42,305 nt of DNA from Dialister histaminiformans (GTDB lineage: Bacteria > Bacillota > Negativicutes > Veillonellales > Dialisteraceae): NCBI RefSeq assembly GCF_900103425.1, contig NZ_FMXA01000013.1, forward strand, positions 1 to 42,305. Direction: 5' to 3'. Below are positions 486 to 30,150 of this stretch, piece after piece. The notes under the pieces were generated by a model. That model saw only the letters and a program-made list of their open reading frames with translations, did not search any database and was not told the DNA's origin. Every line of letters starts with the position of its first letter. Position 1 is the stretch's first letter. Position numbers and translations under genes: made by a program.

Positions 486-2384
486 TTAGTCATCCAGAAT
501 ATTATTTCTGTATTCTCTGTAAGCAACTTCCAATGCTTCAATCTTTCTTGTCATTTCCAGCTGGAGCGCAGAAGCTGTGTCATAATCTCTGGCTTCCAGT
601 GCATCCTTCAGTCGGGTGCAGATGGACTTCTTGCCTTCCTTGTCCTTACCCAGTTCGATACGGACAGCCTTGATAGCTTTCCAACGCTTCTTGTCCAGAT
701 CGTCATCATCTTCAAGATGCTTGAAGAGGCGGAGTTTTGCCTCTACTGCCGGAATGATGCGGTCTTCCAGTTCATTGGACCAGCGATAAAGGATAGAAGC
801 TACGAAGGAGTCAACGATATCCGCAGTCAGGGTATCCCCTGCAGTCAGCACCTTAACCTTATCCGGGTTAGCACGCATAATCTTGACGTTTTCCCAGACA
901 GTTGCCGGCGGTTTACCGAATTCAGCATCACGTTCTTCATCTGTGAAGTCTTCGAATACATTTTCTTCACAACGATAAGCTCTGCCTTCTTCCAGGTAAT
1001 CTGCTTTATCTTCCGGCTTCTTGGAGAGTTCAGCCAGAAGTTCAGCCGGGGTCTTACCGGAGGTTACCGCATAACGGATTCCGTCCAGTGCGGTGAGATA
1101 CAGGCAGGAAGCTGCCAGATAGGTGTTGGTGAACGGATTGGGCGCTCTGAGTTCAAAGCGAGTAGCCTTCGGATTATCAATATCGCGAATCAGACCAATC
1201 AGGATGGTTCTGTTTCTGGATGGAACATCCGGAGTGTGACCCAGAGAGGTTACGATACATACGGGAGCTTCAAAGCCTGGCTTCAGACGGTTAAATGCAT
1301 CCGTGGTAGAGGAAACAAATGGGTTGGTTGCTTCATAATTCTTCAGAATCCCCATAATAAACCCATAACCGATGGTGGACAGGAAATCCGCCTTCATATC
1401 TTCCGGTGCCAACAGATTGATTGTCTTGCCGTTCTTAAGACGGGCTACTATACCTACATGGGTATGTTCACCACTCCCCGCAACGCCGATAATCGGCTTA
1501 GCGCGGAAGGAAACATCAAGACCATTCTTACGGAAAATTTCGCGAACCACAATGCGGGCTTCCAGTTCATTGTCACCAGCCTGCAGCGGGTTATCACTGA
1601 ATCTCCAGTCAAGTTCCAGCTGTTCTGCTACGTCTACAATATGTCCATTGTCATCTACATGCGGCTTAATTCCGCCAACTTCCTTATGCCCCATTTCAAC
1701 GAGCATTCCACGTTTTTCGAGAGCATCTACGGTCTGTTCCATGGCTGTACGAACATTACCGCGCATTCTCTGCCAATACTGTTCCTGTAACTTCTGAGAA
1801 ATGGAAAGATTCGGAACAGAATGTTTTTCACTTGGTGTCTTTACCCAGAATTCCAGTTCAGTACCGGTGGTAAATATAATATCCTGGATTTCATGGAATG
1901 GTACATTTTCCATTCCCTTTACCGGATGGGTGGTGAGCAGCTTCTTAAGTTCAGCCGCTACATAGTCACATGATTTTTTAAGAATAGCTCTGGAATCCAC
2001 GAATCTGTCATTGTGAAGAAGGAATGCAGGAATACGGAGAGTACCAGTCGGAAGTCCTGTTTCTTCATCCAGGTTTTCATAATTATAATCAATGTACCAG
2101 TTTACGCTGCTGTCAGTTACCATATCCACTCTGGCATCATTGAGTGTGGCAATGTTCATAAGCACTACCGAGGAGCCATCGGTCTGTACGGCTCTGCCAG
2201 CAAAGAAATCATCATAGTTTTCCTTGAAAATACGAATCGGGATCTTTTCATCTGTATCATTGCCGGCCAGATCGATACCTACAACAGATACAAATTTAAT
2301 TTCAGGATGCTGTGCAAGGAGGGATAAGACCCCCTCTTTTCCATACTGCCCAGCAGGAATGTAATAGAGTAACTCGTCAGCCAT
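486..2384 (-). CDS. glnA: glutamine synthetase, long form (632 aa)
   Basis: ATP-dependent ligation of ammonia to glutamate, a cytoplasmic enzyme and the main entry of ammonia into glutamine. The glutamine synthetase catalytic fold is recognisable. A metal-binding TELEFW segment lies near residue 176, the GSGEHTHVG loop (family pattern GxGxHxH) at 303-311, and RFELRAPNP (substrate-binding arginines) at 409-417. At 632 aa it is longer than the classical 440-470 aa GSI enzymes. The extra length is an N-terminal part and a C-terminal helical tail (about 480-632) rich in Lys, Glu and Arg, as in long forms found in anaerobic Firmicutes. The ATG follows an AGGAGG site. A strong promoter lies 104-132 bp upstream, with a terminator hairpin between promoter and gene, so expression may be attenuated. 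No glnR or glnB gene is adjacent. Confidence 0.93.
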   Translation of the reverse strand: MADELLYYIPAGQYGKEGVLSLLAQHPEIKFVSVVGIDLAGNDTDEKIPIRIFKENYDDFFAGRAVQTDGSSVVLMNIATLNDARVDMVTDSSVNWYIDYNYENLDEETGLPTGTLRIPAFLLHNDRFVDSRAILKKSCDYVAAELKKLLTTHPVKGMENVPFHEIQDIIFTTGTELEFWVKTPSEKHSVPNLSISQKLQEQYWQRMRGNVRTAMEQTVDALEKRGMLVEMGHKEVGGIKPHVDDNGHIVDVAEQLELDWRFSDNPLQAGDNELEARIVVREIFRKNGLDVSFRAKPIIGVAGSGEHTHVGIVARLKNGKTINLLAPEDMKADFLSTIGYGFIMGILKNYEATNPFVSSTTDAFNRLKPGFEAPVCIVTSLGHTPDVPSRNRTILIGLIRDIDNPKATRFELRAPNPFTNTYLAASCLYLTALDGIRYAVTSGKTPAELLAELSKKPEDKADYLEEGRAYRCEENVFEDFTDEERDAEFGKPPATVWENVKIMRANPDKVKVLTAGDTLTADIVDSFVASILYRWSNELEDRIIPAVEAKLRLFKHLEDDDDLDKKRWKAIKAVRIELGKDKEGKKSICTRLKDALEARDYDTASALQLEMTRKIEALEVAYREYRNNILDD

Positions 2385-2419
2385 GATATCCTCCTAAGTG
2401 ATTGGAATCTAGTTCCAGA

Positions 2420-2460
2420 TAAATAAAAATGACTCATCCACTAATGTGAATGAGTCATCT
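2420..2460 (-). terminator. terminator hairpin in the glnA leader (attenuator candidate)
   Basis: ATGACTCAT and ATGAGTCAT form a 9-bp stem, extended by CAC/GTG inside, followed on the minus strand by TTTTTATTT. It ends rpsU-yqeY transcripts, but it also lies downstream of the glnA promoter (2488-2516) and upstream of the glnA start (2384). Transcripts from that promoter must therefore pass it. A second small hairpin (2402-2416, TGGAA/TTCCA) lies between it and the ribosome binding site. Confidence 0.8.
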
Positions 2461-2487
2461 TTGACAGAATTATTAACTTATGGACTA

Positions 2488-2516
2488 AGTATACGTTATC
2501 CGTATTTACTTGTCAA
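2488..2516 (-). promoter_or_regulatory. sigma-70 type promoter of glnA
   Basis: On the minus strand TTGACA, 17 bp, TATACT. The -35 matches the consensus and the -10 matches in five of six positions. The predicted transcript has a leader of roughly 95 nt that contains the 2420-2460 terminator hairpin. Confidence 0.85.
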
Positions 2517-2529
2517 GCTTAATTACAGA

Positions 2530-2982
2530 CTATTTAGCAAGTAATTCACGTACAATGGTACTGATTACCTTACCATCCGCCTTGCCCTTAAGCTTTGCCA
2601 TACAGGATTTCATAGCGAAACCCATGTTACGCTGTTCTTCCGGTATAGCATTCAAAGTTTCCTGCACAACCTTCCTGATCTCTTCTTCAGAGAGTTCAGC
2701 CGGGAGGTATTTCTGTAATACAGCGATTTCAGCATTGGTCTGATTAATCAGATCATCTCTGCCTGAATCAGCAAGTTCAGCGAGAGTTTCCTTACGCTGC
2801 TTTACTTCTTTGCGCAGAACGGTAATGACCTGGTCATCATTGAAATTCTGATGACCATTATCAATCTCAGCCTGTCTGATATGTGCCCGCGCCATGCGGA
2901 TTACATTCAGAGCCAGTTTGCCTTCTGCCTTAGCTTTCATGGCCGATTTCATATCCGCCATAAGCTGTTCCTTAATTGACAA
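2530..2982 (-). CDS. GatB/YqeY domain protein (YqeY family)
   Basis: A 150-aa cytoplasmic protein of the YqeY family, related to the C-terminal tRNA-binding tail domain of GatB. Its exact role is unknown, though a link to tRNA handling is often proposed. Family signs are the N-terminal SIKEQLMADMKSAMKAK helix and the C-terminal GKADGKVISTIVRELL segment. I choose the TTG at 2980-2982 as start. It is preceded at 4 nt by GGGTGAT, which pairs with the 16S rRNA tail, and it gives the family's usual N-terminus. A GTG 9 nt upstream (to 2991) lies inside that ribosome binding site. It follows rpsU by 20 nt and is co-transcribed with it, a common pairing in bacteria. Confidence 0.9.
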   Translation of the reverse strand: MSIKEQLMADMKSAMKAKAEGKLALNVIRMARAHIRQAEIDNGHQNFNDDQVITVLRKEVKQRKETLAELADSGRDDLINQTNAEIAVLQKYLPAELSEEEIRKVVQETLNAIPEEQRNMGFAMKSCMAKLKGKADGKVISTIVRELLAK

Positions 2983-3002
2983 TCTAATCACCCGATTACT
3001 GA

Positions 3003-3179
3003 TTACTTGAACTTACGTTTTCTTGCTGCTTCAGACTTCAACTTACGTCTTACGCTTGGCTTTTCGTAATGTTCACGCTTTCTTACTTCAGAAAGAACCC
3101 CGGCCTTTTGGCAGGAACGTTTAAATCTGCGAAGAGCGCTTTCCAAAGATTCGCCCTTTCTGACCTTAATTTCAGACAT
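3003..3179 (-). CDS. rpsU: 30S ribosomal protein S21
   Basis: A 58-aa basic protein of the small ribosomal subunit platform, near the 3' end of 16S rRNA. The N-terminus [19 protein letters not shown] and the Arg/Lys-rich C-terminus are typical. The ATG at 3177-3179 is preceded by GGGAGGGAGGG at a good distance. An upstream TTG in frame lies inside that purine run and is rejected. A perfect consensus promoter lies at 3230-3258. It is first gene of an rpsU-yqeY unit ending at the hairpin at 2420-2460. Confidence 0.97.
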
Positions 3180-20305: not shown

Positions 20306-20635
20306 TTATCGAAGCAGTCTGGAAACCACATAAACCAGAGCCGCGACGGCCAGTATTGCCCCAAATCCGACAAAGGCAAACCAGACCGCGACTGCCAGCA
20401 GCATAAGGAAGCCAATGAAGGCCGCCCCATACAGGATCTTCTTCCACAGCGGCAGACTGTGTATATGAATTACATGGATTCCTGCCTGTTTTGCAGCATC
20501 ATCCCAGTCCATCTGTTCCCGGCTGCGCTCTTCCTGTCCGTTTTCGTTCAGCGTAAGGCCCTGAAAATCATGGACATCGGTTTCACTCATCACCTGAGGC
20601 TCTTCATGAACCTGTGTATTCTTATCTTCTGTCAT
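20306..20635 (-). CDS. hypothetical membrane protein, 109 aa
   Basis: I do not recognise a family. The first 60 residues are acidic and polar (many Asp, Glu, Gln), with a short HVIHIHS stretch. Two hydrophobic segments follow (about 68-86 and 90-106), ending in a basic VSRLLR tail. It is probably an inner-membrane protein with a cytoplasmic N-terminus. It has a plausible site (GAGGAT) before the ATG, its own terminator, and sits alone between gatB and uvrB. Coding is supported by clean boundaries rather than by homology. Confidence 0.7.
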   Translation of the reverse strand: MTEDKNTQVHEEPQVMSETDVHDFQGLTLNENGQEERSREQMDWDDAAKQAGIHVIHIHSLPLWKKILYGAAFIGFLMLLAVAVWFAFVGFGAILAVAALVYVVSRLLR

Positions 20636-24077: not shown

Positions 24078-24125
24078 AGTTTCCACTTCCTTCTTTAAGA
24101 CATTTGCTTCTATATTTTACCAGAT

Positions 24126-24141
24126 TTCAAGTCAACTTGAA
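24126..24141. promoter_or_regulatory. palindrome in the gatC promoter region
   Basis: TTCAAGT, two bases, ACTTGAA: a perfect 7-bp inverted repeat about 50-65 bp before gatC. It overlaps a TTGACT hexamer that could serve as -35 with TATAGA (15 bp spacing, not ideal). It may be an operator. Confidence 0.45.
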
Positions 24142-24197
24142 CAGATAGCCTGCTAAATAAATGACAATCCGGACCAACCTCATTCATAATTAGCGAA

Positions 24198-24219
24198 TTG
24201 CAATAAATAACGCAACACT
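24198..24219. repeat. left terminal inverted repeat of the IS
   Basis: Reads TTGCAATAAATAACGCAACA and two more bases; pairs with 25164-25185 at 17 of 22 positions, with GCAACA and ATAA blocks conserved. Confidence 0.75.
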
Positions 24220-24221
24220 TT

Positions 24222-25092
24222 TCACAAATTAGAAATTTCCTGTGTAAACATCTCTGATGCAGACCTGAATCCAAGACATTTTCGTGGTCTTTCATTAATC
24301 AATGACACGCTTCTATCCAGCTCTTCCTGATTGATGGCAGAGAATAATGTACCCTTAGGATAAAATTCTCTGAGCAGACCATTGGAATTTTCATTGGCTC
24401 CGCGTTGCCGTGAGGAATATGCCTCTGCAAAATAGAAGGGAATGCCCATGGCCTCTATCTCCCGGAAACAGGCAAATTCCTTCCCTCTGTCTGATGTCAT
24501 GCTTCGGAAACAGTTCTTTCCATATCGCTTTATCAGCTGTTTAACCGCATATAGCATAGATTTAGCAGAACAATCCGGAATACAAATCGTCACATAGAAA
24601 CGCGTTTTGCGTTCCAGGAAGGTGGCTTCACAGGCCTTATCTTTTCCACGAGGAGATACTACGGTATCAATCTCCCAATGCCCAAAAGTCTTTCGTGTCT
24701 CTACTTCGGGCGGTCTGTCAGAGATGGGAGTTCCAATCAAGAACTTTCCTCTGATTTCCATGGTCCTGAAAGGTTTTCCTTTACGACGAAAAACCTTTTC
24801 ATCAACGAAGAACCTTTTCATCGACGGAAAGTTGTTTATTATGAATCCAGTTATAGATGGTTTTAGCTAGAGAAGCAGTAAAGATGGTGCATCTCCCCTT
24901 GGTAGAGCGGCATAAGGAGGCATGGGCTTCTGCACGTTCAGCGAAATACTGCCCCGGTGAACGCTTGAACTCACGAGAAATGGTGGAAGGATGTACCTTC
25001 ATAAGGGACGCAATTTTACGAACAGAATGACCTTCAAGCACCTATGCTTCTATCTGATAACGTTCTTTTATGGTAAGATGGGAATAACTCAT
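24222..25092 (-). pseudogene. IS30-family transposase, broken by a stop and a frameshift
   Basis: Reading from ATG 25092, MSYSHLTIKERYQIEA runs into TAG at 25042-25044. The same frame continues with the IS30 N-terminal helix-turn-helix (GHSVRKIASLMKVHPSTISR) to 24802. The catalytic DDE domain then continues in another frame to 24222: HWEIDTVVSPRGKD has the first Asp, MTSDRGKEF the second, ANENSNGLLREFYPKGT the Glu. The shift coincides with a 19-bp tandem duplication (24788-24825). Removing one copy would restore a single frame, so these are two inactivating lesions in an otherwise full-length gene. Confidence 0.9.
24788..24825. repeat. 19-bp tandem duplication inside the transposase
   Basis: Two adjacent 19-bp copies (24788-24806 and 24807-24825) differ at two positions. 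Because 19 is not a multiple of three, the duplication shifts the transposase frame. The two differences suggest it is not recent. Confidence 0.85.
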
Positions 25093-25159
25093 ATTGGTAG
25101 TCCTTTCTATAATGTATTTGTCGTTATTCACATTTTACAGGAAACTACCAATATGAGTT
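25086..25159. repeat. 16-bp inverted repeat around the transposase start
   Basis: AACTCATATTGGTAGT (25086-25101) is perfectly complementary to 25144-25159. The ATG (25090-25092) and the GGA of its ribosome binding site are inside one arm. Only transcripts entering from outside the element would contain both arms and fold. Confidence 0.85.
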
Positions 25160-25163
25160 TTTT

Positions 25164-25185
25164 ACTGTTGCATTATATTTTACAA
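25164..25185. repeat. right terminal inverted repeat of the IS
   Basis: On the minus strand begins TTGTAAAATATAATGCAACA; partner of 24198-24219. Confidence 0.75.
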
Positions 25186-25193
25186 TCTACGTT

Positions 25194-25203
25194 ATGGTAA
25201 AAT
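25194..25203 (+). promoter_or_regulatory. possible extended -10 of the LuxR-type regulator
   Basis: ATGGTAAAAT, a TGn-extended -10 about 110 bp before the chosen start and 9 bp outside the IS end. No clear -35, and any -35 would lie in the IS terminus. Confidence 0.35.
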
Positions 25204-25314
25204 GAATGTATATTAAATTTAAGTTATAAATTTATGTTAACACAGAGTACCCAGAAAAACGGTATCTGCTGTCCGTTCAAAATCTTAGCTTACTCCCCGG
25301 AGAGGTGTCCAATT

Positions 25315-27606
25315 ATGCACATTGACAATGACCCACTGAAAGAAGAGGCTGATCTTTTATCCTATACACGTCGCATATATCATGATTTCTACGTCCAAAA
25401 CGATATCGCCCTGCTTCTTGCATCGTTAGCCCCTGATGTTTCCTGGTGTGGCAGCGGATCACAGATGATGAGATCCGGACGGGACGAGGTCATGCGATTC
25501 TTTGTCTCCACAAAAGATGAAATGATTCCTTTCACTATTCATAACGAAACCACGGCTGTGCATCGTTTAAGTGCCGACTTCATAAACATCACCATTGCCA
25601 ATGATGTACAGACACTGCCATCCACTCCACTGCTTCTGAAAGAACATCTCAAGTGTGACATCCTATATAGGAAAAATCCGGATTGTGCCAATGGCATCTG
25701 TTGGGAAATTGTCCATATCAATAATTCCGTTTCATATGACAAACTTAATCCCGATGAAACCTATCCCATCGCCGAAGGCACCCGGGCCTATCAACAACTG
25801 ACAGAAACGCCGGTCTTACCGGAGAATAAGATTTCCTTCTTCCGCATGATAGGCAGAAAACTCATGCCCAGTCTTTCAACAGAAGAACAGCATTGTCTCA
25901 GTATCCTCTCCATCTTTGACAACTTCTCTATTGAAGATGCTACAACAGTCTGCGGCAATACCAATATCTATGCCCTGCTGAACAAACTCCTGGCTCAGGG
26001 ATTTGTTCTTCACCAGACAAAGACCACCGGTACCTATGCATTGTATCCTCTGATAAGAGAATTCCTGCAGCAGAAATTCTCTCTGCTTCCGAAAGAGGAA
26101 CAGAACCAGCATTTAACCTGCGCAGCACAACATTTTCTTTCTCAGCAGCAATATACCAAAGCCATGTCTTATGCAAACCGTGCAAAGAATTATTCTCTTT
26201 GCCTTCGCATATTCATCAGGGGCGCAGACACCATACTGCTTTCCAATCCCAAAACATACCCTATGGATTTACTGGATCATGTTCCTTCTTCTGTGCTGAA
26301 AAAACATATGTATCCGGTACTTTACATACTGCTGGACATGTATTTTACAAATGCCAGAAATCTGTATCAGAAAAATTATGACAGGGTTAATTCATTATTG
26401 ACCGGAGAGGACAAACACATATTCTTCGAGCTGTTAAAAGCCTATATTTCTCTCAACAATCTCCCCTCGATGATCAATCATATGCAAAATGCCTGCACCA
26501 TTTTACAGCACACCCATTTCCGACAAAAACTCTATGCGCCTCCTCTCGGTTTTTTATGCCCTTCTTTTGCACTAATTTACCATTCGGTGCCCGGAAAATT
26601 CAGTGAAGAAATAAATCAGCTTGCCACATTGCATCAACTGTCGGCTACTATAAATCATAAACAGAATCAGGAAGAATGGGCATTATATTTTAAGGCAGAG
26701 TACAGTTATCATACCGGAAACTGGAAAAAGTCCGCAGAAATTCTGGCTCATCTCTCAACACTGCCGGCTTTTGCCCTTGAACTGACCTTAAGAGCACGTA
26801 TCCTCTATATTCAGGGATTTATGGCTTATTTCCAGAATGATTCGAGCTCTCTTTCCGATATCTATGAAAAATTACAGTCTTTGTTGCCCCGAGCCACCAG
26901 TTATGAGTCCATGCTTATTCATCTTTGCAGCCTCCGACTACGGTCCGCCATACCGTGTATAGCTGAAAAAAATATTTCGCCAGACTCTGAACCTGAATCT
27001 CCTCTCCGCCACTCTCCCGGGCTTACCTATCAGGAACTTATCGAAACCTGTACATTGATAAAACCGGGAAACGGTATCCCTCTCCTTTATGCCGCGCTCA
27101 GAAATGAACGCTTTTCCAGAGAACGCCATTCAGTGTTAGGTGAAATTTACAGTTATTTATATCAGGCCATTGCTTATGATATGCTGAATCAGCCGGACGA
27201 CTTTCGCCAAAGTCTCACTAAAGCGCTTACTCTGGCGGCTCCGGATCATATTATTTCGCCTTTTCTTCCATTTACTTCCCATTTACCAGTCACCTGGAGT
27301 CAAATACGTGGAAGCGATTCCATGAACCATCTGATTCAGGACATAGCTTTATTTGTCCAGGAAAGACCGTATCATCTGGAAGTAAAATCTATGCAATTTC
27401 CTCTGCTACAGGAAACACTGACTGGTAAGGAACTTCGTATTATCCATCTGGCCGTATCCGGAAAAACTAACCGGGAAATTGCCGAGGAACTGCATCTCGC
27501 AGAAATTACAATAAAAAAGGCTCTTTCCCGTATATATAAAAAGCTGGGAATTAAAAACAGAACGCAGCTGGCCACCCTTATAAACCAACATTTCCTTAAT
27601 CCGTGA
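25315..27606 (+). CDS. LuxR-type regulator with SnoaL-like N-terminus and TPR-like core
   Basis: A 763-aa cytoplasmic transcription factor. Residues about 8-150 look like a SnoaL/NTF2-fold ligand domain (ADLLSYTRRIYHDFYVQND, SWCGSG, SGRDEVMRFF). Residues about 185-270 resemble the winged helix that follows the ATPase in MalT-type regulators (CLSILSIFDNFSIEDA, YALYPLIREFLQQKF). A long helical, TPR-like region runs to about 690. The last 62 residues are a LuxR/GerE helix-turn-helix (LTGKELRIIHLAVSGKTNRE). No Walker A or B is found before the winged helix, so the ATPase of MalT/LAL regulators is missing. I choose ATG 25315, 7 bases behind GGAGAGGTG; an ATG at 25234 has no site. Ligand and targets are unknown; the converging adhesin gene is one candidate. 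Confidence 0.8.
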   Translation: MHIDNDPLKEEADLLSYTRRIYHDFYVQNDIALLLASLAPDVSWCGSGSQMMRSGRDEVMRFFVSTKDEMIPFTIHNETTAVHRLSADFINITIANDVQTLPSTPLLLKEHLKCDILYRKNPDCANGICWEIVHINNSVSYDKLNPDETYPIAEGTRAYQQLTETPVLPENKISFFRMIGRKLMPSLSTEEQHCLSILSIFDNFSIEDATTVCGNTNIYALLNKLLAQGFVLHQTKTTGTYALYPLIREFLQQKFSLLPKEEQNQHLTCAAQHFLSQQQYTKAMSYANRAKNYSLCLRIFIRGADTILLSNPKTYPMDLLDHVPSSVLKKHMYPVLYILLDMYFTNARNLYQKNYDRVNSLLTGEDKHIFFELLKAYISLNNLPSMINHMQNACTILQHTHFRQKLYAPPLGFLCPSFALIYHSVPGKFSEEINQLATLHQLSATINHKQNQEEWALYFKAEYSYHTGNWKKSAEILAHLSTLPAFALELTLRARILYIQGFMAYFQNDSSSLSDIYEKLQSLLPRATSYESMLIHLCSLRLRSAIPCIAEKNISPDSEPESPLRHSPGLTYQELIETCTLIKPGNGIPLLYAALRNERFSRERHSVLGEIYSYLYQAIAYDMLNQPDDFRQSLTKALTLAAPDHIISPFLPFTSHLPVTWSQIRGSDSMNHLIQDIALFVQERPYHLEVKSMQFPLLQETLTGKELRIIHLAVSGKTNREIAEELHLAEITIKKALSRIYKKLGIKNRTQLATLINQHFLNP

Positions 27607-27639
27607 AAGATCATGCCTCTGCACTTTCCCGTCAAAATC

Positions 27640-27686
27640 AAAAAAGGATTCAGAAATACCATAAATTATTTCTGAATCCTTTTTTC
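27640..27686 (+). terminator. terminator of the LuxR-type regulator
   Basis: AAAAAGGATTCAGAAATA pairs with TATTTCTGAATCCTTTTT and ends in T on the plus strand, 35 bp after the stop codon. Confidence 0.92.
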
Positions 27687-27791
27687 TTTGTCCCCCTTTT
27701 AAGTACCCTGCTTGTTGCAGTCTGGTGGTCATTACCATCTTCGCTTCCAATAAACAGCTGTCAGTCCCTGCTCACATTTCCACCAATATAT
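27687..27791. other. gap between convergent regulator and adhesin genes
   Basis: Between the two convergent genes (27607-27899, 293 bp) I see only the two terminator hairpins. Short open frames in it overlap those hairpins and lack ribosome binding sites. Confidence 0.6.
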
Positions 27792-27832
27792 AAGGGTCAA
27801 TGCACAGAATTTTTACCTATGCATTGACCCTT
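27792..27832 (-). terminator. terminator-like hairpin after the adhesin gene
   Basis: AAGGGTCAATGCA (27792-27804) pairs perfectly with TGCATTGACCCTT (27820-27832). On the minus strand it is followed by TATATATT rather than a pure U-run, so it is a moderate terminator. Confidence 0.7.
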
Positions 27833-27899
27833 TCCTCAAATCATCATCTCCCGTAACTAACATCCGGCCTGGAGGGACGAAAACTGATGATTAATGAGG

Positions 27900-29621
27900 T
27901 TATGCCTTGTTGCTGGCTGTCATGGCCTGGAGCTCCGGACGGAATTCATCAATTAGTTCTTTTTCCGCCTTAACGCCCTTTGAAAGTGCTTTGTAGATAA
28001 TTTCCGCCATTTCATAGCGGGTCATCTGACGCTCCCCATGGTATTTGCCATCTTCATAACCTTCTATGATGCCGTTCCCAGCCAACCGGGAAACTGCTTC
28101 ATATGCCCAGTGGTTAGCTGGTACATCAGGGAATTCCTTGGACATATTAGGATTCAGCACGGAAAGCAATGCGTCCATGCGTGCTTCGAGCTCCTTAACT
28201 TCCTGACGAAGGATTTCATTCTCCTTGATCGCATTCTCAGTTGCTGCACGTGCCGACTTATTGCCACCGCGGCCCACTCTTACAGAAATTCCGCCGCCCA
28301 CCATGTTTTCACCGGTACCGAACGAGGTAGATACTCCAAGCATTACGTCTTCATTCGGACGATAGTACATGCCTATAGCTGCTGCCGTTTCATCCCTGTA
28401 ATTGCCTACGGCTGCCGCCACATTCAACTTAGAATCCTTATCGAATTCCAGTGGATTAAGGTTAGCCAGTGCCGCTGCATTAGCCCCCACCTTATCCAGG
28501 CGGCTGTCCAGTTTGGACACTCTCTGATTAGTATTGTAGAGCTGAGAACCGTTTACCGCGTCCATGCTGGTCGGTGACAGTTCGCCTGGAGCTACATTGG
28601 TTATCTTCTTGTTATTTGCGTTGATTCCTTCCGCGCTGATATATGTTTCATTGCCAACCTTGAAAGAAGCGGCTGTCACATCACCAGTGACGGATGCATT
28701 ACCAGCCACGTTCAGATTCTTAGCAATATCCACATCATCGTGGAAAGTTGCTTTTCCTGCTTCCACATTTCCTGTAGTGCTGATGGTTCCACTTCCTGCA
28801 TTCAGATTTCCTCCACTCAGAGTAAGGTCATGTCCTGTCATAGAACCGGTAACACTGAGACTTCCCCCGGTAATGCTTCCATCTGCATTTAATGCAGCCG
28901 CTGCATCGGTACTGTTACTGCCGCCTGCATATACCCCACTGACGTCCATCTTGGTTCCTGTACCAACAGACAGTCCGGTAGTATCTATGGTTACCGCATT
29001 GGTCTCACCTTTATTGATAATCAGAGTATCTGCCGGATTAACTGAGGTGGTTACGTTACCATCCGCATCAACAGAAGAAGTGATTTTCTGCAACGTATTA
29101 TTTTCATCTACCGCCAGACCATGGTTGATTGCTCCAGACAGTGCATCTACATTGGCCTGATCATGATCAGCCTGTGCCTGCAATGCGGTCTTGGTTGCGT
29201 AGGTAGTCTCCGCATCTGCCGTTTTCAGATACGTAGTGGAAATATCATTACCATCCTTATCGCTCACAGCCTTTTCTGCTTCTGTTGCATTGGCTACATT
29301 ATTTACCACGACAGTTGTAGAACTGCCATCCCCTTTAGTAACAGTGAGTGTAGCCCCGGCCCCTGAAACATCGGTTACCACATCGGATAGCTCACCAGAA
29401 AGTACGGTGGCTGTTCCACTTGCCGGTGTGCTGACCTCCGTCGTACTGAGAGCGGCAAAACTCATTCCCGCCCCAGACAATAACGCCCCAGCCGTCATAG
29501 CGGCAATAACCAAGCCCCGCGTGGCTTTCCCTGCACTTTTTGTATGTGCTCTGGCAAATTCTGATGTAACCACATAACAATTCTTTGCCTGATTGTAAAT
29601 AACTCTGTAAATCCTGTTCAT
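27900..29621 (-). CDS. trimeric autotransporter adhesin with C-terminal SLH domain
   Basis: A 573-aa surface protein, secreted by type Vc. Residues 1-24 (MNRIYRVIYNQAKNCYVVTS) form an ESPR-type extended signal, followed by a hydrophobic signal core ending near Phe-Ala-Ala. The passenger (about 60-340) is Thr/Ser/Gly/Asn-rich and repetitive. A YadA-type neck (ITNVAPGELSPTSMDAVNG) covers 341-387 and the four-strand membrane anchor 388-453. Unusually, the chain continues with a coiled coil (454-495) and a full SLH motif (496-548; DVPANHWAYEAVSRL, MTRYEMAEIIYKAL). The anchor's last strand should end in the periplasm, so the SLH domain is placed to bind peptidoglycan. ATG 29621 follows AAGGAGGG. 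Confidence 0.9.
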   Translation of the reverse strand: MNRIYRVIYNQAKNCYVVTSEFARAHTKSAGKATRGLVIAAMTAGALLSGAGMSFAALSTTEVSTPASGTATVLSGELSDVVTDVSGAGATLTVTKGDGSSTTVVVNNVANATEAEKAVSDKDGNDISTTYLKTADAETTYATKTALQAQADHDQANVDALSGAINHGLAVDENNTLQKITSSVDADGNVTTSVNPADTLIINKGETNAVTIDTTGLSVGTGTKMDVSGVYAGGSNSTDAAAALNADGSITGGSLSVTGSMTGHDLTLSGGNLNAGSGTISTTGNVEAGKATFHDDVDIAKNLNVAGNASVTGDVTAASFKVGNETYISAEGINANNKKITNVAPGELSPTSMDAVNGSQLYNTNQRVSKLDSRLDKVGANAAALANLNPLEFDKDSKLNVAAAVGNYRDETAAAIGMYYRPNEDVMLGVSTSFGTGENMVGGGISVRVGRGGNKSARAATENAIKENEILRQEVKELEARMDALLSVLNPNMSKEFPDVPANHWAYEAVSRLAGNGIIEGYEDGKYHGERQMTRYEMAEIIYKALSKGVKAEKELIDEFRPELQAMTASNKA

Positions 29622-30150
29622 ATGTATACCCTCCTTTTGAACACCATCTTTTGTGACAGCTTCAGGCCAGATGAACTGCCGGTCTGTCAACTCCCAAATA
29701 TTAAAGGCCCTTTCCGGAATCTTCCGGAAAGGGCTCTGCAATACACCGGGGTAAACTATCACCTTACTCTTCCCCTGCGATGCAGCCTTATCTTGGCCGG
29801 ATGATTCTCTGCATCAGGAATATGCTGGCTGCTTACGCCATCTCATCCCCTGAAAGTCTATCAAACCTTTTACTGTGAATAGTATAAAAAACCGGGGTTA
29901 TTTCAAAAAGTATACTCAAGTATATTCTTACTTTTTACTTGTACATCAATTGCACGACATTGGCACACCACAAATAATCTGAAATTCCGCTAATGGTTGA
30001 CACTTGCTGCATTTTATCTCGATTGTAAACTTTATTTCGTTCTTCAAAAAAACATTATTAGATAAAAATTCATCCGGCGTTATATTATAAAATTAAGTTA
30101 TACTTTCGTATATAAGTGTATATTTATTCCTCGCATTCCCATTTTATGAC
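29622..30150 (-). promoter_or_regulatory. long gene-free region upstream of the adhesin
   Basis: About 530 bp without a gene. It holds a near-perfect hairpin (29707-29734) and repeated AAGTATA/GTATA elements (29908-29924, 30100-30126). There are two possible minus-strand promoters: TTTTTG-17-TATACT at 29881-29909, and TATACG-17-TATAAT at 30084-30112. Either would give a leader of about 250 or 460 nt. The AT content rises sharply from 29870 to 30150. Confidence 0.5.
29707..29734. repeat. 13-bp hairpin with double TTCCGGAA in the adhesin leader
   Basis: GCCCTTTCCGGAA, two bases, TTCCGGAAAGGGC: each arm contains the palindrome TTCCGGAA. On the minus strand it is followed by CTTTAATATTT. It may be an attenuator hairpin or a double operator. 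Confidence 0.7.

Follow-up and report, generated by a model that had tools for sequence, protein, structure and literature searches.

An NTF2/SnoaL-like domain in place of the ATPase of a MalT-type regulator beside a trimeric autotransporter adhesin gene in Dialister histaminiformans

The inserted locus and the domains of the regulator

The window, that is, the whole 42,305-nucleotide stretch of the Dialister histaminiformans genome analysed here, carries a segment inserted between gatC and ligA (approximately 24106..30150) that comprises an IS30 remnant, a regulator gene and an adhesin gene, and that is absent from a genome of the same genus (G001). The gatC-ligA gap measures 120 bp in G001 and about 155 bp in G009, against ~6 kb in the window, and similarity between the window and G001 stops near 24105 and restarts near ligA. 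The IS30-family transposase remnant (24222..25162, reverse strand), recognized by Pfam rve and PHROG transposase matches, has an interrupted coding region and terminal repeat-like arms. The regulator gene (25315..27606, forward strand) opens with an ATG at 25315 behind a good ribosome-binding site read in the sequence (GGAGAGG, 25299..25305, forward strand) and stays open to 27606, encoding 763 amino acids. Convergent with it, tail to tail, is the gene of a trimeric autotransporter adhesin (27900..29621, reverse strand) in which Pfam identifies an ESPR signal, a YadA stalk, a YadA anchor and a C-terminal SLH domain. Its open reading frame is listed from 29762; judged from the sequence, translation probably begins at the ATG at 29621. 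No other protein in this genome gives the ESPR plus YadA_anchor match (Pfam).

The same pair, also tail to tail, lies in D. succinatiphilus on a different contig from gatA and ligA, and the simplest reading is that regulator and adhesin move as a unit. The regulator had been placed at the edge of an IS remnant; the IS30-type remnant upstream is real, but the IS is incidental, as the pair also occurs without one. We considered a sequencing or fusion artefact, or an IS-driven chimera unique to this genome, and rejected both since independent genomes have the same architecture without the IS.

The body of the regulator follows the plan of E. coli MalT and other LAL/STAND activators, with a winged-helix domain (WHD), a TPR solenoid and a C-terminal LuxR helix-turn-helix (HTH) in the same order. 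The WHD (residues ~166–256; 25810..26082, forward strand) is identified by homology to the MalT/LAL domain from profile position ~167 and by comparison with MalT in the PDB (8bob_C, Z 16.2, 157 residues aligned, 2.7 Å), and the NCBIfam model of E. coli MalT aligns with the D. succinatiphilus relative over MalT positions 255–550, starting just past the NBD-HD. The TPR-like helical solenoid (residues ~260–680; 26092..27354, forward strand) is seen as helices in AlphaFold2 (AF2) models and superposes on MalT domain III (1hz4, Z 16.5, 272 residues aligned, 4.4 Å); the Pfam TPR_MalT match is weak. The LuxR/GerE HTH (residues 699–757; 27409..27585, forward strand) carries the LAL-type AEITIKK motif and matches Pfam GerE at residues 701–755 (E 1.9e-14).

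The ATPase is missing from this protein, not hidden in it. Pattern checks and alignment revealed no Walker A motif in the window protein or in any NTF2-headed relative, whereas ATPase-bearing LALs of the same class, two N-terminally odd ones excepted, carry APMG(Y/F)GKT. These ATPase-bearing proteins match the family profile only from ~167 onwards, after at least 225 residues of their own. The original prediction of a MalT/LAL regulator that keeps its winged helix, TPR-like helices and LuxR HTH and has no Walker motif was thus borne out by Pfam, AF2 and PDB comparison.

A conserved WHD histidine of MalT forms a hydrogen bond with the β-phosphate of ADP in the resting protein (PMC10427625). At the column that alignment suggests is equivalent, the window protein has a tyrosine (Tyr244; codon 26044..26046, forward strand), D. 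succinatiphilus and one G009 copy have phenylalanine and one G109 copy has glutamine. Nearly all aligned ATPase-bearing LALs have histidine here, as do most of the NTF2-headed chimeras, including most Acidaminococcaceae members. With ADP gone as a partner, loss of the histidine in the window's branch is as expected; its retention in most Acidaminococcaceae members counts against the model proposed below.

The place of the NBD-HD ATPase is occupied by an NTF2/SnoaL-like domain (residues ~7–145; 25333..25749, forward strand). Pfam SnoaL_3 matches residues 22–139 (E 3.5e-4) at 21.4 bits, just under the cut-off of 22; seven of ten aligned relatives also match (best E 6e-6), and some related NTF2 domains score above the cut-off (24.6, 24.9 and 27.3 bits). 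An AF2 model of the whole protein, built with ten aligned relatives as input (mean pLDDT 73.8, pTM 0.48), gave separate confident domains of NTF2 topology, winged helix, long helical solenoid and HTH, with a pTM that makes their mutual placement unreliable. Residues 1–165 folded alone again adopted the NTF2 topology (pLDDT 78.5, pTM 0.71). Helices packed on a bent antiparallel sheet, the NTF2 cone, are present in both models, with Z scores of 12–15 to many NTF2 folds; the comparison with 3d9r aligned 130 residues in each case (Z 15.3, 2.8 Å in the full model; Z 13.2, 3.4 Å for the domain alone). Across 14 domains, Gly55 is the sole invariant residue, and Ala39, Asp41, Gly46, Arg119 and Trp130 are nearly so. 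A degenerate NTPase fold at the N-terminus, which we also entertained, is ruled out by the two predictions and the NTF2 matches. Structure prediction had been proposed as the check on the domain swap, by asking whether the N-terminal part shows an NTPase fold or lacks an NTF2 fold; the NTF2 fold was seen, and the swap stands on both AF2 predictions, the PDB matches and the absent Walker motif.

Relatives of the regulator and of its NTF2 domain

A search of Negativicutes genomes for the same architecture and its neighbours, as had been suggested, found both relatives and recurrent adhesin neighbours. Full-length relatives are present in at least 11 other genomes from three families: D. succinatiphilus (G007), G009 (two copies), G049, Acidaminococcus massiliensis (G063), other Acidaminococcus (G061, G064, G066, G067) and a Succiniclasticum group (G109, G111, G113), the genus names being those we inferred. 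Partial, broken or frameshifted copies occur in the Megasphaera-type genomes G019, G028 and G036. In a tree of the WHD-TPR-HTH part, 15 chimeras fall on one side of a branch (support 100/99) and 16 ATPase-bearing or other LALs on the other. As the chimeras form one clade, a single replacement event explains them, and the NTF2-headed clade is old, of single origin and spread over three Negativicutes families. The suggestion of a lineage-specific system was therefore not sustained, with the clade reaching across these families and leaving fragments in a Megasphaera-type genus. One G009 copy groups among Acidaminococcus proteins in the tree, which suggests that it may have been transferred horizontally.

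The source of the HTH is less sharply defined: its mean identity is 0.40 to LAL proteins and 0.39 to short NTF2-LuxR proteins, and an HTH tree has too few columns to choose between them. Two further proteins were seen in the course of this survey. In G036 (L007; contig C36, 8587–8913) a 154-residue protein joins an NTF2 domain straight to the last ~27 residues of a LuxR HTH and is probably a deletion remnant of the chimera. In G122 (L078, 6712–9015), a 767-residue LuxR/LAL-like protein has neither a Walker A motif nor a recognisable NTF2 domain; here the ATPase may have been lost a second time, independently.

A profile restricted to the NTF2 domain found matches in 96 of 380 Negativicutes genomes, in architectures that include short NTF2-LuxR proteins (200–320 residues), NTF2-PAS-histidine kinase-receiver, NTF2-PAS-GGDEF-EAL, NTF2-GGDEF-EAL and NTF2-PAS-GGDEF. 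The match is strong in a PAS-kinase protein of G695 (E 4e-21); among those of GGDEF type, the weaker ones, at 20–40 bits, may be distant members. The domain looks like a portable input module, and its position at the head of several signalling classes supports an input role. The short NTF2-LuxR proteins of Succiniclasticum and Selenomonadaceae share with the window protein the NTF2 subfamily and the LuxR HTH, with the AEITIKK motif in the closest subset, but have no WHD or TPR. In Succiniclasticum-type genomes (L054, L056, L058) their genes adjoin groEL in a conserved neighbourhood.

The open-licence literature that we searched, for SnoaL with LuxR and MalT, holds no description of the NTF2-headed MalT-type architecture, which is weak evidence of novelty; it likewise contains no report of SnoaL as a sensor domain with GGDEF, and the literature searched gave no description of the short NTF2-LuxR proteins. 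Regulation by such a domain has, by analogy, an established precedent among sigma factors: in ECF41 and ECF56 sigma factors (SigJ, SigG1) a SnoaL_2 domain sits on a DNA-binding transcription protein, with a presumed modulating role (PMC7730460). In those sigma factors the domain is C-terminal, whereas the window protein carries one from a different SnoaL subfamily at the N-terminus of a MalT-type body.

The adhesin neighbour and its upstream region

The original prediction that the regulator faces a surface adhesin gene held, and in D. succinatiphilus, G109 and G113 the regulator likewise has a member of this adhesin group next to it. The adhesin is no further than about 1 kb away in the window and these three genomes, and probably also in G067, where the adhesin start adjoins the regulator gene at a contig edge. 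The adhesins of the window, D. succinatiphilus, G109 and G113 form one group, 60–62% identical over ~300 C-terminal residues. The pair extends beyond Dialister to two Acidaminococcaceae, and the adhesin group is shared by two families with different flanks. Trimeric autotransporters with a C-terminal SLH domain and the architecture of the window adhesin are known from Veillonella, in an account that describes the type as restricted to Negativicutes and that, in the portion available, reports no dedicated NTF2-LAL regulator (PMC5491611).

A YadA-type adhesin adjoins 5 of the 15 regulator loci, against 0.4–0.7 expected (p ~1e-4 to 6e-4, or ~4e-4 to 2e-3 after collapsing close relatives), in a post hoc test that counts the prompting window among its loci. 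The adhesin group is found in 9 of 12 genomes with an intact regulator and in 7 of 368 without one (Cochran–Mantel–Haenszel p ~0.0009 stratified by family or genus, with related genomes still included); this co-occurrence is partly shared ancestry. A universal association can be discarded: many copies lie away from any adhesin, namely both of G009, those of G049, G061, G063, G064 and G066, the second copy of G109 and the first of G111.

At nine loci without an adjacent NTF2-LAL gene, this adhesin is instead adjoined by a LytTR response regulator, one of them only a fragment, and three of the genomes with such loci have an NTF2-LAL gene elsewhere. The D. succinatiphilus adhesin locus has both regulators, and no LytTR protein was found in the window genome. 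The distribution reads as replacement of one regulator by the other beside the adhesin. Upstream of the D. succinatiphilus adhesin (L050, around 20320–20365) is a near-perfect tandem repeat of ~20 bp, AAAATGACCACTTTTGCAG twice, the spacing of which would suit the adjacent LytTR regulator. Elsewhere in the window genome (L011; G000 contig C25), the gene of a 242-residue LuxR-type regulator (952–1680) directly precedes that of a repetitive protein (1935–3056), possibly surface-exposed.

Upstream of the window adhesin, just above a promoter-like site, are the tandem 10-mers GAATATACTT GAGTATACTT (29908..29927, reverse strand), a putative operator. The tandem GAATATACTT-GAGTATACTT has no second occurrence in the genome when up to three mismatches are allowed. 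The G109 adhesin has GAGTATGCTT-GTGTATGCTA upstream with the same 10-bp period; single copies of the 10-mer occur in G063 and G064, and it is absent from seven genomes without an intact regulator, for a motif that was picked after seeing the window. A motif search found none upstream of the regulator genes themselves. MalT sites are likewise arranged as ten-base direct repeats, and we treat the tandem 10-mers as a lead only, a candidate operator read from sequence.

The 5' leader of the adhesin (29621–29900, reverse strand) is long and folds much more stably than shuffled versions of it (z −4.0), with a perfect GC-rich hairpin (29707–29734) followed by a weak T run. It matches no Rfam family at gathering score and is not conserved among relatives; an attenuator is possible.

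A model for ATP-independent control of the adhesin

STAND/LAL regulators of the MalT type undergo ATP- and inducer-dependent multimerisation. The window protein differs from them in having no NBD-HD ATPase and hence no ATP-driven NOD switch, in bearing the NTF2 domain instead and, within its branch, in having lost the WHD histidine. We consider it probable that this protein is an ATP-independent, NTF2-gated one-component transcription factor that descends from a STAND/LAL activator of the MalT type and has the neighbouring adhesin as its main target. In this model the NBD-HD ATPase of the ancestral activator would have been swapped for an NTF2/SnoaL-fold input domain, and ATP-driven opening of the NOD would no longer be needed. 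The NTF2 domain, possibly helped by the TPR solenoid, would receive the signal, of which a small molecule bound in its pocket is the likeliest form; the signal would alter how the WHD-TPR-HTH part packs or dimerises, and the LuxR HTH would then bind repeated ~10-bp sites. The adjacent trimeric autotransporter-SLH adhesin would be the main target, the two genes together forming a transferable regulator-plus-adhesin module. What the computations establish is the architecture, the loss of the ATPase, the single origin, the recurrence of the NTF2 domain in other signal proteins, the linkage with the adhesin and the empty insertion site; ligand binding, the allosteric route, the oligomeric state, the DNA site, the sign of regulation and the target are, in this model, what we infer.

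The main rival to NTF2-gated control assigns sensing to the TPR solenoid, which would bind the inducer, and makes the NTF2 domain an assembly hub, like the association domain of CaMKII, that supplies the dimer or ring once made by the NOD, constitutively or under regulation. CaMKII hub domains are indeed among the structural matches (Z ~12–12.6), and the inducer site of MalT is formed by the arm and the TPR sensor (PMC4381067), of which the TPR part is retained here. The presence of the same domain on histidine kinases, on GGDEF-EAL proteins and on short NTF2-LuxR proteins that have no TPR fits an input role better, even if dimerisation is still possible in those proteins, and we regard the hub as rather unlikely. 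Less likely again is that the regulator controls genes elsewhere and that shared mobility, or the gathering of accessory genes in the same hot spots, accounts for its adjacency to the adhesin. The many relatives that do not lie beside an adhesin and the post hoc nature of the adjacency test (p ~1e-4 to 2e-3) speak for it; the recurrence of one adhesin group in two families with different flanks, the LytTR regulator that the adhesin locus otherwise has and the similar tandem 10-mers that precede the adhesin gene both in the window and in G109 speak for the adhesin as target. Finally, the fragments and frameshifted copies in Megasphaera-type G019, G028 and G036 could be taken to mean that this is a decaying STAND protein, bereft of its ATPase and fading in function, in which the NTF2 domain is a passive fusion remnant. 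That the frame is long and intact in at least 12 genomes, that conservation is domain-wide over three families and that the origin is old and single makes decay very improbable.

Beyond NTF2-gated control of the adhesin, we put forward tentatively a broader scheme, in which a separate NTF2 sensory family, of which the literature searched gives no description, would serve as a plug-in ligand-sensing input across Bacillota signalling (LuxR proteins, histidine kinases and c-di-GMP enzymes). Here it would have taken the place of the STAND ATPase altogether, so that an activator that forms rings and is switched by ATP became a ligand switch with no need of ATP. This switch would travel as a cassette with a Negativicutes-specific adhesin and would have taken over the slot of a LytTR regulator.

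An ATP-driven switch is the defining feature of STAND proteins, a class that runs from MalT to the immune receptors of plants and animals. A naturally occurring clade with the WHD-TPR-effector body, but with an NTF2 domain for the motor, opens to experiment the question of which elements of the switch really need ATP. The finding also points to an NTF2 sensor family common to several signalling classes, and it offers a concrete candidate regulator for the adhesins of gut and oral Negativicutes, the control of which is poorly known.
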